From assembly GCA_012842685.1 (NCBI GenBank), contig DUSI01000049.1, positions 141,691-205,690 of the forward strand: a DNA stretch of 64,000 nt, written 5' to 3'. Made by a program: the position numbers and the translations under genes. This document shows positions 3,655 through 9,131 of the stretch, one piece after another. The stretch is from Candidatus Fermentithermobacillaceae bacterium. Lineage in GTDB: Bacteria; Bacillota; Sulfobacillia; Fermentithermobacillales; Fermentithermobacillaceae. Position 1 is the stretch's first letter. Every line of letters begins with the position of its first letter. Below the pieces are notes generated by a model. It was not told where the DNA came from. It saw only the letters and a program-made list of their open reading frames with translations, and did no database searches.

Positions 3655-4593
3655 ATGGCTGTTTCCCCGTGCTTCGACGCAGGCTCAGATTACTGCCCTT
3701 GCGTACTCGCCGAACTCGGACAGTGCGTCGCCTGTTCGCTTATACGAGGAGAGCCAACGTGCAAGTGCGGCTGGAGCGGACTCTGCATCTACGCTGAGTT
3801 CCTACGCGCCGGAAGTAAGGCAAGACCCAGGAGACGTGAGCTTTCAGCTCGGATCCTCTCCAGGGAAGAGATCGCCCGGACTCCGAGGACCCGGGCTTTC
3901 CTCTTGGAACTCGAGGTCCCCAAGGAACTCTCCGCTTGGTGCGAGGCGCCGGGGTCCTTCGTCCTGGTGCGGCCGAGGGGTCTACCTGAAAGGTTCAACG
4001 TCCCGCTTTCGGTCATGTCGTCGCGAGACGGCATCCTGACTCTGGCAGTCCAGGTAGTAGGCCCCAAGACGGTCGCCCTCGAGGGCTCGTCCCGTGAAGG
4101 CAGGCAAGTGACCCTGGTAGGCCCGTTTTGGGCGGGTATCCAGGGCTTAGAACACCTAAGCAGACACGCGGGCGGGAGCGTCCTCATAGTCGCCAAGGGG
4201 ATCGCACAGGCTTGCGTGGTTCCCGCCGCCAGGTACGTGAACCTCAAGAGAGGTACTGTCCGGGCGCTCCTCGGAGGCGGGACTCTCGGGTCCGTCTTCG
4301 TCCTCAGCCGGCTCTTGGCCGCCGGCGCCTCGGCCGAGGTATTGCCCAAGGAAGACGACCACAACCTGGGCAGGATATCGTCTGAGCTTTCGGCGCATCG
4401 CTACGATGTGCTCCTCAGCGCGGGAGCAGATGTCCAGCACAACGGGCTCAGGCAGCTGCTCAAGCAGATGGAGGACCCGCCTGCGTTCGCGTGGACCTCC
4501 AACTTCTCCATGACCTGCGCGGAAGGCATCTGCGGCTCTTGCCTCACGGGCGGCCTGAGATCCTGCAAGGCCCATATCCCGGAAAGCATCTAG
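3655..4593 (+). CDS. PyrK/sulfide dehydrogenase-like FAD/NAD(P)-binding electron-transfer subunit with Cys-rich N-terminus
   Basis: ATG 3655 with SD GGGGGAG; N-terminal CPCVLAELGQCVACSLIRGEPTCKCGWSGLC; C-terminal CAEGICGSC...C resembling the PyrK [2Fe-2S] motif. Confidence 0.8.
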   Translation: MAVSPCFDAGSDYCPCVLAELGQCVACSLIRGEPTCKCGWSGLCIYAEFLRAGSKARPRRRELSARILSREEIARTPRTRAFLLELEVPKELSAWCEAPGSFVLVRPRGLPERFNVPLSVMSSRDGILTLAVQVVGPKTVALEGSSREGRQVTLVGPFWAGIQGLEHLSRHAGGSVLIVAKGIAQACVVPAARYVNLKRGTVRALLGGGTLGSVFVLSRLLAAGASAEVLPKEDDHNLGRISSELSAHRYDVLLSAGADVQHNGLRQLLKQMEDPPAFAWTSNFSMTCAEGICGSCLTGGLRSCKAHIPESI

Positions 4594-4625
4594 AGGCGAA
4601 AACTCGCATGGGGGAGGTCTCACCT

Positions 4626-5930
4626 TTGAAGAGATATCACGAAGTTGTCGTCGTCGGCGGCGGTTGGGCAGGCGTCTCGGCCGCGATAGCCGCGAAGAAG
4701 GCCGGCTGCGACGTCGCCATCTGCGAGAGGACCGACATGCTCCTCGGGGCAGGCCTGGTTGGAGGCATCATGAGAAACAACGGGAGGTTCACGGCTGCCG
4801 AAGAGGCGATCGCCATGGGCATAGGCGACCTCTTCCACCTCCTCGACGGTATATCGCGCCACAAGAACGTGGGTTTCCCCGGCCACTCCCACGCCAACCT
4901 GTACGACGTTTTCCTCGTCGAGCCAAGAGTCCGGGGTCTCCTCGAGAGGTCCGGGATCCATGTCTACACGGGCAAGCGGATAACCGGGCTGCGGAGAGAC
5001 GGCGGCCGCATAACGGCCGTCACGTCTGAAGACGGCGATGTCCTATGCGCAGAAGCCTTTGTAGATACGACCGGTTCCTCGGGCCCGCCCGGGATGTGCA
5101 GGCGGTTCGGGAACGGCTGCGTCGCATGCATCCAGAGGTGCCCCGCGTTTGGCCCGAGGGTAAGCCTCACCTCCCTAATGGGTCTTCCGGAGTTCATGTC
5201 TAGCAGGAGGCGGGGAGCCTACGGGGCAATGTCGGGGTCTTGCAAGATACACAAGGAAACCCTTTCAAAGGACATACGCGAAGAGCTTGAGAGGACCGGC
5301 GTCGTCGTCGTGCCCCTTCCGGAGAGGCTCAGAAACCCATCAAAACTCGAGACAAAAGTCTGCCAGCAGTACGCCCTGCGCGAGTACGCCGATTCCCTCA
5401 TCCTTCTCGACACCGGACACGCCAAGCTCATGTCCCCTTACTTCCCGCTGGAGGAGCTCCGCTCCGTGGAGGGATTTGAGGAAGCCCGTTACGCTGACCC
5501 TCTTGCGGGGGGCACAGGCAACTCGGTCCGCCTCACGGCGGTCTCGCCCAGGGACTTCACGATGAAAGCCACGGGGACCGACAACTTGTTCGTAGGCGGT
5601 GAACGGGCAGGAGTGTGCGTGGGACACACCGAGGCGATAGTCACAGGCGCTCTCGCCGGGCGAAACGCCGCTCTTCTCGCCCGAAAGAAGCCACTCACGG
5701 TCATCCCCGGGGACACCGCGATAGGAGACTTCATAGCCCAGTCGGCCATCGACACGTCGGGGAATCCGCTGACGCCGGGAAGCCACGGCCTTTCGGCGTC
5801 CCACACCTTTGCCGGTTCGGTTTATTTCGAAAGGATGAAATCCCTGGGTCTATATTCGTCCGATCCGGTGGAAATAGCCCGAAGGGTGCGGAGCTGCGGG
5901 GCCGAAGGGCTCTTTCTCGCGGGGGAATAA
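4626..5930 (+). CDS. FAD-dependent oxidoreductase
   Basis: N-terminal EVVVVGGGWAGVSAAIAAKKAGCDVAICER Rossmann fingerprint; TTG start at 4626 has SD GGGGGAGGT; ATG 4608 is the alternative. Confidence 0.85.
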   Translation: MKRYHEVVVVGGGWAGVSAAIAAKKAGCDVAICERTDMLLGAGLVGGIMRNNGRFTAAEEAIAMGIGDLFHLLDGISRHKNVGFPGHSHANLYDVFLVEPRVRGLLERSGIHVYTGKRITGLRRDGGRITAVTSEDGDVLCAEAFVDTTGSSGPPGMCRRFGNGCVACIQRCPAFGPRVSLTSLMGLPEFMSSRRRGAYGAMSGSCKIHKETLSKDIREELERTGVVVVPLPERLRNPSKLETKVCQQYALREYADSLILLDTGHAKLMSPYFPLEELRSVEGFEEARYADPLAGGTGNSVRLTAVSPRDFTMKATGTDNLFVGGERAGVCVGHTEAIVTGALAGRNAALLARKKPLTVIPGDTAIGDFIAQSAIDTSGNPLTPGSHGLSASHTFAGSVYFERMKSLGLYSSDPVEIARRVRSCGAEGLFLAGE

Positions 5931-5962
5931 CCCACGTGCCCGGTGGGAACTCCTAGATACGG

Positions 5963-6324
5963 TCCATCATGGCCGAGCGAAGATCGGCCGGAGCCTCGTC
6001 CGGTTCTGGCCGGTCGGGCAAAGGTAGTGCTGCCCGGAAGGGCAGTACTGCCGGAGCTAAGGTCGTGGCGTTTCCCTACGCCCTTCCGGTTTGTCTTGGC
6101 CCGAACTGTCAACACAGGCCGGACTGGGAGACGGTACGGCTGAGCCAAGGCTTATCAGGTTGCCGTATCTTTCTGTGTGGGTCGCAAGATCCTCACAGGC
6201 GGAAAAGGTAGCCTGATGGGCCGGGCAAAGGTTTCACGGCTGCGGTCCGGTGTCTATCTGGATCGAAAGACCCACCTAGATGCCAAAACCGTGGCCTTGA
6301 AGCCGGCGCGAAGGTCATGATGGA
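5963..6324 (+). ncRNA. candidate structured noncoding RNA, family unknown
   Basis: 12-bp closing helix TCCATCATGGCC/GGTCATGATGGA enclosing several hairpins, three capped by GNRA loops (GGAA, GCAA, GAAA); lies between convergent stops with no convincing ORF. Confidence 0.6.
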
Positions 6325-6343
6325 TTTTCCTCTTGGAAAGCCT

Positions 6344-8686
6344 TTACTCGTGGCGAAGTATCCTGAGCCCGTTCAGGGTGACCAAAACTGCCGCGCCGGA
6401 GTCAGACAGTACCGCAACCCAAAGCGGCAGGATCCCGGCCAAGACCAGCGCCAGGGCCGCACCTTTTACCACTAGGGAAAAGGCGACGTTCTGCGCTATA
6501 AGCAGCCGTGCCGCCCGGCCGAGCCTGAGGGCCCACGGTACCTTGGAAAGACTATCTTTGAGCAGGGCGACATCTGCCGTTTCCAGGGCAACGTCGGCTC
6601 CTGCACCCATGGCTATACCCACGTCCGCCGCGGCCAGGGACGGAGCGTCGTTCACACCATCGCCCACCATGGCGACCGTACCGTGCTCCTCTTTGAGCGC
6701 GGCGATAAGGTTTTTCTTGTCTTCGGGCATAAGACCGGCGCTGTAGGAACCTACTCCGGTTTGGGACGCCACGCGCCTGGCGGTCGCCTCTTCGTCCCCG
6801 GTGAGCATCACGGTCGCGATCCCCATGTTCCGGAGCTCCGCCAGGGCGTGAGAAGCGTCCGGCCGCACCTCATCGGCGAGACCTATGACCCCCAGGACTT
6901 CCTGACCGGTCCCGACGAATACCGCGGTCTCTCCCCTCTCCCTCATGAGCGCCGCGTCTCGAACCAGGTCTTCCGGGATATGGACGCCCATCTCTCCGAA
7001 AAGCCTCTCGTTTCCTACATAGACATTGCGTTCCCCTACGCGTGCCTTGGCGCCCTTCCCCCTGATCGAAACGAAGTGCTCTCCGGGTTCGAAATCGAGG
7101 CCCATCTTTTCCGCGTGAGCCACGATGGCCCTGGCCAGCGGGTGTTCGGACCTGGCCTCTACTGCCGCGGCAAGGGCGAGAACGTGGGCGGGACCTGGAG
7201 CGAGTTCAACGACCGGCTCAGAGGGCCCCATCTCCCAGACCTCGCCTCCCCCGTTTCCTCCGGCCAGAGCAGGAAGAGCGGCGCCGGCCTTTGCCGAAAC
7301 GCGGCTCACAGCAATACGCCCCATGGTGATCGTACCGGTCTTGTCGAACGCGACGGCCTTCACCTTGCCCAGGTCCTCCAGGTGGATCCCGCCTTTCACG
7401 AGTACGCCGAAACGGGCTGCCCGCGCTATGGCGGCCACCACCGTAACGGGGGTTGATATAACCAAGGAGCACGGGCAGGAGACTATGAGCACCGTGAGGC
7501 CACGGTAGATCCACGGTCTAAACTCCGCCTTGAGTACGAGGGGCACACCCAGCGCGATGACGAGGGACAGGAGCACCATGGCGGGAGTCCAGTACCTGGC
7601 GAAAACGTCGACCATCCGCTGGGACCTGGCTTTCTTGGCCTGGGCTTCCTGGACCATGGCGATTATCCTTGAGACGGTGGTGTCCTCGGCAGTCCTCTCT
7701 GCGCGGAGCTCCAGCGCCCCTTCGCCGTTCAGACTACCCGCGAAAACCCTGCTCCCCACACCTTTGTCCACTGGAACAGACTCCCCGGTCAGAGACGACT
7801 CGTCTACGCTTGACTCACCTTTGACGACGTAGCCATCGGCCGGGATCATCTCTCCGGGGAAGACCACAACTATGTCTCCAGGAGCGATCGCCGAAGCCTC
7901 GACCTCGACCAGGGCATCGCCTCTCTTCACGCGGGCCGTCCGGGGGCTCAAATCCATGAGGGCCTGTATCGAGGTTCTGGCCTTTTCGCTGGCCTTCTCT
8001 TCGAGGAACTCACCTATGGAAAAGAGCGTCATGACGGCCGCGGCTTCTCCGTACTCGCCGATCAGAAGCGCTCCGGCACCCGCTATCGTAGTAAGGAGGT
8101 TGATGTCCGCTCCTCCACCGCCCATGAGAGCCCTGAACCCGGCCCTGGCGACGGGGATCCCCGCCACCACCGCGGCCAGCACGAATGGGACCCAGTACCA
8201 CCCCTGCCCGGCGCGCTCCGCCAGAAACCCCGCGGCGAGCCCAAGAGCTCCCATGAGAGGCGCCCACATCCCGCCGGCATGGGAGTGGCCTTCGTGGGAA
8301 TGGACATGGATAGAGTGGGAATGGTCGTGATGGGAATGGCCGCGCGCATGGTGGGCATGGTCGTGGGGATGGTCGTGGTCTCCATGGTCTTCATGGCATC
8401 CATGGGCGTGGCATGCCGGGCGATCTTGCCTATGGGCTCTGGATCCTTTCGCCCTGTATCCCAGGGCCACTATCTTGGACAGGATGTCTTCCGGGCCTAC
8501 CTCTTCGAGAGAATACTCGGCCCGTAGAAGCCCCGAGGGGAAACCTACCGTCGCTCTCCTCACTCCTGGGAGCGAGGCCACCGCCTTCTCAACCCTCGCC
8601 GCGCAATCGTGGCAGTGTAAACCCTCTAAGATCCACTCGCCTGTCACCAGAGAAGCGCAGACTTCTGTTCTGTCGTCTATACCCAC
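6344..8686 (-). CDS. heavy-metal-translocating P-type ATPase (Zn/Cd/Pb type) with His-rich linker
   Basis: HMA motif GLHCHDCAARVEKA, CPC motif SCPCSLVIS, DKTGT, GDGVNDAPSLAAADVGIAMG; GTG at 8686 with SD GGAGGAA. Confidence 0.95.
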   Translation of the reverse strand: MGIDDRTEVCASLVTGEWILEGLHCHDCAARVEKAVASLPGVRRATVGFPSGLLRAEYSLEEVGPEDILSKIVALGYRAKGSRAHRQDRPACHAHGCHEDHGDHDHPHDHAHHARGHSHHDHSHSIHVHSHEGHSHAGGMWAPLMGALGLAAGFLAERAGQGWYWVPFVLAAVVAGIPVARAGFRALMGGGGADINLLTTIAGAGALLIGEYGEAAAVMTLFSIGEFLEEKASEKARTSIQALMDLSPRTARVKRGDALVEVEASAIAPGDIVVVFPGEMIPADGYVVKGESSVDESSLTGESVPVDKGVGSRVFAGSLNGEGALELRAERTAEDTTVSRIIAMVQEAQAKKARSQRMVDVFARYWTPAMVLLSLVIALGVPLVLKAEFRPWIYRGLTVLIVSCPCSLVISTPVTVVAAIARAARFGVLVKGGIHLEDLGKVKAVAFDKTGTITMGRIAVSRVSAKAGAALPALAGGNGGGEVWEMGPSEPVVELAPGPAHVLALAAAVEARSEHPLARAIVAHAEKMGLDFEPGEHFVSIRGKGAKARVGERNVYVGNERLFGEMGVHIPEDLVRDAALMRERGETAVFVGTGQEVLGVIGLADEVRPDASHALAELRNMGIATVMLTGDEEATARRVASQTGVGSYSAGLMPEDKKNLIAALKEEHGTVAMVGDGVNDAPSLAAADVGIAMGAGADVALETADVALLKDSLSKVPWALRLGRAARLLIAQNVAFSLVVKGAALALVLAGILPLWVAVLSDSGAAVLVTLNGLRILRHE

Positions 8687-8759
8687 CCGGATTCCTCCGT
8701 TCCCGAACAAAGTGTCCAGGTGGGATAAGGCCTGCCTGCTTAGTTACTGCCCTTGCCCG

Positions 8760-9131
8760 CTACCCGTGGGCCGCGTGCTTGAAAGCCTCCGACATCAGGG
8801 TCTCAACGTGCTCGTCATCTAGCGAGTAGACCACCCTTCGGCCCACCTTGGTCGCCTTCACTAGGCGCATGGTCCTGAGGAGCCTGAGGTGATGGGACAC
8901 ATTGGATACCGACGTGTCCAAGATAGTCGCCAGATCGTGGACGCACCACTCGCGTTTCAGCAAGAGATACAAGATGGACAGCCTCGTGCTGTCCCCCATT
9001 ACCCTGAATACCTCAGCGACGTATCCCGTGTCGGGTAACGACGCCCTAGCTTCTTCGGCCGAACGGAAATCCACCTCGTGTGTCTCGCACATGTCAAGGT
9101 CGTCTCGTTCAAGGCCCGGTTCGCAGGTCAA
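8760..9131 (-). CDS. ArsR/SmtB-family metal-responsive regulator
   Basis: wHTH VFRVMGDSTRLSILYLLLKREWCVHDLATILDTSVSNVSHHLRLLR; C-terminal DEHVETLMSEAFKHAAH. Confidence 0.92.
   Translation of the reverse strand: MTCEPGLERDDLDMCETHEVDFRSAEEARASLPDTGYVAEVFRVMGDSTRLSILYLLLKREWCVHDLATILDTSVSNVSHHLRLLRTMRLVKATKVGRRVVYSLDDEHVETLMSEAFKHAAHG

Follow-up and report, generated by a model that had tools for sequence, protein, structure and literature searches.

What does the gap between two convergent genes in a genome of Candidatus Fermentithermobacillaceae encode, and what could its product do? A sequence-only reading of the window, by which we mean the whole 64,000-nt stretch analyzed here, had placed in this gap a candidate novel, plus-sense, self-contained and heavily folded non-coding RNA (ncRNA) of about 360 nt, and each sequence string that it quoted was found where it had been located. 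The fold statistics, the covariation in 13 order-level homologs and the absence of any Rfam match support such an RNA, its transcription being itself predicted.

Fold and conservation of the RNA

The plus strand from 5950 to 6330 folds with a minimum free energy (MFE) of -224.7 kcal/mol, compared with a mean of -150.4 for shuffled sequences (z = -12.4; 0 of 100 shuffles were as good), while the minus strand of the structured region reaches a z of only -3.2, so that the proposed plus sense is right. The fold has the shape of a six-way junction, in which helix P1 closes the molecule and arms P2 to P6 radiate from it (Table 1). The closing helix had been described as 12 bp long; it is present and slightly longer, at 14 bp. 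With one exception, the remaining proposed helices are recovered in the MFE fold, and the 13-sequence consensus pairs their positions too, save at the variable tip of P6. The exception concerns segments 6133–6140 and 6162–6169, thought to form a helix, which are unpaired with each other in both the fold and the consensus. Specifically, GGTACGGC (6133–6140) is part of the 3′ strand of P4, and GCCGTATC (6162–6169) belongs to P5. Between the linkers, GC dinucleotides pair to give three helices of 2 bp each, which are paired in 100% of cells of the 13-sequence alignment.

Table 1 Predicted RNA, its parts and its flanking elements in the window
Feature	Position	Strand	Evidence and remarks
FAD-dependent oxidoreductase-like gene (upstream)	4491–5930	+	ORF table; weak NCBIfam matches, to FAD enzymes only
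-35-like element GAATA of putative sigma-F-type promoter	5925–5929	+	Overlaps TAA stop of upstream gene
-10-like element GGGAACTCCTA	5945–5955	+	15 nt after -35; ends 5 nt before RNA
Structured RNA of predicted 366 nt, including both strands of closing helix	5961–6326	+	Fold z; 13-sequence covariation; matches to models R1, R2 and R3
P1 closing helix, 5′ strand	5961–5974	+	14 bp with 6313–6326; fold; 99.5% of cells paired
Linker GAGCGAA	5975–5981	+	First of six, of form GRGCNAA or GGNGCNAA; linker scan
Arm P2, hairpin	5982–6015	+	Fold; compensatory changes in 7 of 13 pairs
Arm P3, hairpin, GGAA loop	6023–6052	+	Fold; compensatory changes in 7 of 12 pairs
Arm P4, 16-pair proximal helix (consensus), variable distal part	6061–6141	+	Compensatory changes in 8 of 16 proximal pairs
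Arm P5	6149–6222	+	Fold and covariation analysis; proximal helix of 16 bp, then 3x3 internal loop, distal helix and GCAA tetraloop
Arm P6, GAAA tetraloop	6230–6304	+	Fold and covariation analysis
Other linkers (GRGCNAA or GGNGCNAA)	Starts near 6016, 6053, 6142, 6223, 6305	+	Linker scan
P1 closing helix, 3′ strand	6313–6326	+	Fold; followed by TTCC; no strong intrinsic terminator
Heavy-metal P-type ATPase (convergent)	6344–8710	-	TIGR01525, 579.8 bits, above cutoff

DNA searches found a single copy of the RNA in the window's genome, homologs of 82–85% identity in three congeners, and fragmentary matches elsewhere in the family and the order. A pattern search against named genomes identified the relatives as Candidatus Fermentithermobacillaceae, a family described from a coal-fire metagenome with spore formation predicted (PMC10215811). 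Hits of the P1-motif pattern outside this family (rumen Clostridia, proteobacteria and others) lacked the fold and were set aside as chance matches. Most of the diverged homologs examined adopt this kind of junction when folded.

The proposed structure also stands up to comparison with its homologs. The alignment of 13 order-level sequences (A1) has a consensus of 111 pairs with 97.3% of cells paired; changes on both sides are seen in 51 of the 111, and every arm contributes. The covariation score of 0.448 compares with 0.232 in shuffles and at most 0.126 with the partners slid, and 0 of 500 shuffles reach any covariation measure; the compensatory changes thus exceed both controls, as looked for in a conserved structured RNA. 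No conserved reading frame was found, in agreement with the earlier view that no open reading frame here looks coding: stops interrupt every frame on both strands in 13 of 13 homologs, and most alignment gaps among them are not multiples of three. Additionally, ARAGORN detected no tmRNA or tRNA gene in the window, and neither the tRNA-like domain nor the tag frame of a tmRNA was found.

The invariant positions of the RNA are mainly linkers and helix ends. Several G-U pairs are likewise invariant, and G-U wobbles recur at set places in almost all helices (alignments A1 and A5), frequently three pairs in from the junction, which suggests that they reflect helix packing or protein contact. A separate peculiarity, seen only in genus g4 (L028, L029, L032 and L047), is a repeat of the 5′ strand of P1, CCATCATRACC, ~15–25 nt downstream of the RNA, so that the P1 3′ strand could pair either way.

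Modular arms, distribution and genomic setting

The distribution of the RNA was traced with three models, built from the P2-P3 region (R1), from arm P5 (R2) and, as a covariance model, from arms of many families (R3). R1 matches in 13 of 17 genomes of the order and hits every RNA at two places, showing that the molecule contains an internal two-fold repeat. One genome of the same order, G016, has spoIIR and no R1 match, which could reflect an assembly gap or loss. P5 is the most conserved arm, and R2 and R3 recovered it across class and phylum: R2 matches in 40 and R3 in 43 of 154 class genomes, and R3 in 169 of 399 genomes spread over the phylum (~40%; best E about 1e-22), with matches in 3 of 64 spoIIR-negative genomes as a rough ceiling on its false positives. 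The arm alignment behind R3 has both-side changes in 26 of 33 pairs and a covariation of 0.747, against 0.286 in the control. Many arms consist of a proximal helix of 15–16 bp, a ~3x3 internal loop, a distal helix of ~16 bp and a GNRA cap, and their sequences diverge freely across families while the pairing is kept. Folding of the loci in class and phylum members often gave a longer RNA, of six or seven arms.

No Rfam 15 family accounts for these arms. Scanning the window with Rfam 15 gave no credible match at E up to 10, and in 31 class and phylum relatives, scanned at E up to 1 or 0.1, the RNA itself drew no hit either; the few hits in relatives, all away from the RNA, were a riboswitch, a tRNA and a sub-threshold TwoAYGGAY. 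OLE, ROOL, GOLLD, HEARO, raiA, RNase P, tmRNA, SRP and 6S all stayed below the gathering threshold in Rfam 15. A description of the RNA family was not found in the text of the freely accessible articles searched, three ncRNA discovery studies (PMC11109978, PMC8632094 and PMC6429828) among them. On the best explanation, the window RNA belongs to a so far undescribed family of structured, free-standing RNAs that spans the phylum.

In Fermentithermobacillaceae, a heavy-metal P-type ATPase gene usually lies with its 3′ end toward the RNA. Because its neighbors differ from family to family, it is probably an independent unit. A clear terminator hairpin lies directly downstream of the RNA in several relatives; for the window copy neither an intrinsic terminator nor a sigma-70 promoter was found. 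The convergent ATPase of the window carries a long His-rich stretch near its N-terminus and adjoins an ArsR-family regulator (8760–9131). In other class members, a gene for a LigD-type polymerase (one was tested and scored above cutoff for TIGR02778) adjoins the RNA in L182, L183, L185, L186, L190 and L193, and genes that by their look, unconfirmed by NCBIfam, resemble the spore maturation genes spmA/spmB lie on its other side in L182, L183, L185, L188, L190, L192 and L195, a possible sporulation gene neighborhood.

Seven genomes (G226, G185, G191, G443, G464, G485 and G523) have six to eight R3 matches each, in several of these genomes at well separated places, and apparently carry two copies of the RNA. 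Repeated modules, and hits at two separate places as in G226, G185, G443 and G464, are also what a mobile or repetitive DNA element with cruciform-forming arms would display. Such an element is nevertheless highly improbable, since the window's genome has the RNA at a single place, the G-U pairs impose a strong strand asymmetry, a promoter and a terminator flank many copies, and searches of plasmid and phage collections and two pattern scans of viral contigs gave no match.

Candidate sigma-F-type promoter and link to sporulation

In B. subtilis, sigma-F recognizes GYATA...GGNNANANTR. The weak -10 hexamer TAGATA that had been suggested for the window RNA does exist, and it overlaps the end of an element that is better read as a sigma-F-type -10 (Table 1). 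In most order-level homologs, GMATA-N15-GGRRA can be read by eye some 38 nt ahead of the RNA. The Fermentithermobacillaceae -10 is a one-nucleotide-longer variant of GGNNANANTA, and as a variant it does not tell sigma-F from sigma-G or related sigmas. Class and phylum relatives have a more textbook-like form, for example GTATA-N14-GGGCACACTA or GCATA-N14-GGAGAAAATA, and in some class members the -35 reads GGTTA or GTTTA.

Across 50 upstream regions, NNWTA-N13-16-GGNNAN3-4TA was found in 37 (shuffle mean 1.1, maximum 4) and the strict GGNNANANTR at the right distance in 21 (shuffle mean 0.6), with a search pattern that was settled after the sequences had been viewed and follows the sigma-F consensus and the in-clade sigG control. 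The upstream start positions were set automatically, some being missed or misplaced, and 37 of 50 is likely an undercount because several misses (L022, L024, L030, L204 and L220) had evidently wrong starts. The motif alone is not diagnostic, as GMATA-N15-GGRRA occurs 34 times genome-wide and its reversed-pattern control 28 times. The sigF-like protein of the window's genome scores 194 bits, below the curated NCBIfam cutoff of 321 bits.

For comparison, sigG in the same clade is preceded by GYATA-N15/16-G(G/T)CAATACT, and most of the clade's SASP genes that were checked (L092–L097) have a very uniform, sigma-G-like promoter, GCAT(A/G)-N17-CATAATA. As the SASP -10 differs from the sigG -10 type, the RNA promoter is closer to the sigma-F class than to the sigma-G class; sigma-G was set aside as the sigma factor for the window copy, which lacks the CATAATA that SASP promoters carry 17 nt after the -35. 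A putative sigma-F-type promoter thus stands where it should relative to the 5′ end of the RNA, as looked for in a member of the forespore (sigma-F/sigma-G) regulon, and the computational case for this assignment is strong.

The distribution of the RNA points in the same direction. In the phylum sample of 399 genomes, spoIIR is present in 166 of 169 RNA-positive and 169 of 230 RNA-negative genomes (Fisher p = 3.3e-13, kinship ignored), and within the class all 40 R2-positive genomes have it (40/40; p = 3.3e-4, kinship ignored). In the window's family, three genomes of one genus without spoIIR are also without the RNA. spoIIR is common in the genome sample, and many sporulators have no detectable copy of the RNA; sigG, spoIIR and SASP genes are present in the clade genomes checked.

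Sigma-B, -F and -G promoters are alike. This likeness, with the GGTTA and GTTTA -35 elements of some class members, leaves room for a general housekeeping or stress RNA that is read from a sigma-B-like or other promoter and merely kept in spore-formers. We consider a function of this kind rather improbable, given that the RNA is almost confined to spoIIR-positive genomes across the phylum sample (166/169), the parallel absence of both in some members of the window's family, and the same motif class before sigG in the clade.

A possible structural role in the forespore

The conserved structure and wide distribution of the RNA family are well supported. As to its role, we think it probable that this is a free-standing, forespore-expressed ncRNA that serves the developing spore as a rigid scaffold, structural or RNP, where expression and sigma-F dependence are predicted from the promoter and the scaffold role from conservation. 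The predicted molecule is radial, with one closing helix and five to seven hairpin arms, many of them of near-constant length and ending in a GNRA tetraloop, joined by short GRGCNAA linkers whose GC dinucleotides pair together. It would most likely be transcribed in the forespore, as compartment-specific sporulation begins, by RNA polymerase with sigma-F (or the closely related sigma-G), and could act as a scaffold either by self-assembly, through GNRA tetraloops and helix packing, or by binding spore proteins. We infer that it acts by its shape and not by pairing with mRNAs, since hardly any bases are left unpaired and conservation falls on shape, linkers, wobble positions and tetraloops.

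Several known RNAs offer points of comparison. CsfG is a sigma-F/sigma-G-controlled sRNA conserved in endospore formers, far shorter and with a simple hairpin layout; set against its general description, the window RNA would have forespore sigma control in common with it and differs in layout. The raiA RNA is a structured RNA of Firmicutes whose reported roles include sporulation, and it had no match in the Rfam scans of the window and its relatives. OLE, ROOL and GOLLD, studied by cryo-EM (PMC12286853), are, like the window RNA, hundreds of nucleotides long and highly folded, and the GNRA loops and repeated modules of the window RNA would be compatible with RNA-only assembly. Unlike these three, it has no Rfam match, a single closing helix with near-equal arms, and a link to sporulation.

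A further parallel by description is Bvs196/S547 of Bacillus, a 294-nt RNA that is reported to be forespore-specific and independently transcribed under sigma-F and sigma-G, to have a conserved stable secondary structure and to bind the spo0A and sspN-tlp mRNAs (PMC9147052). The window RNA is similar in its stable structure and, by prediction, in its expression, and the promoter class of its family matches that of Bvs196. It could be a trans-acting sporulation sRNA of the conventional kind, which is produced in the forespore and pairs with mRNAs through its loops or linkers, as has been proposed for Bvs196/S547, and perhaps a distant homolog of the latter. We regard this as unlikely, since the RNA is mostly base-paired, its invariant positions are mainly linkers and helix ends, and the arm sequences diverge freely with the pairing kept. 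Bvs196/S547, compared here by its description only, further differs in being a reported mRNA-binding regulator, encoded in Bacillus between hinT and ecsA, a context that we did not notice among the RNA neighbors examined.

Returning to the scaffold reading, one may tentatively go further, to a phylum-wide forespore-specific RNA that, alone or together with proteins of the spore, assembles into a defined particle and so becomes part of the architecture of the spore core. This stronger form is possible but doubtful; if true, it would be an RNA-built endospore component, unlike any known regulatory or catalytic RNA. A structured RNA found in ~40% of the sampled genomes of a spore-former phylum, having no Rfam family and absent from the articles searched, is unusual in any case. 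Promoter and distribution point to the early forespore as the place and time of action, which makes the function directly testable. If the family is confirmed, endospore development, a program usually described through proteins, would gain a large RNA, and there would be a natural example of modular RNA architecture with arms of near-constant length.
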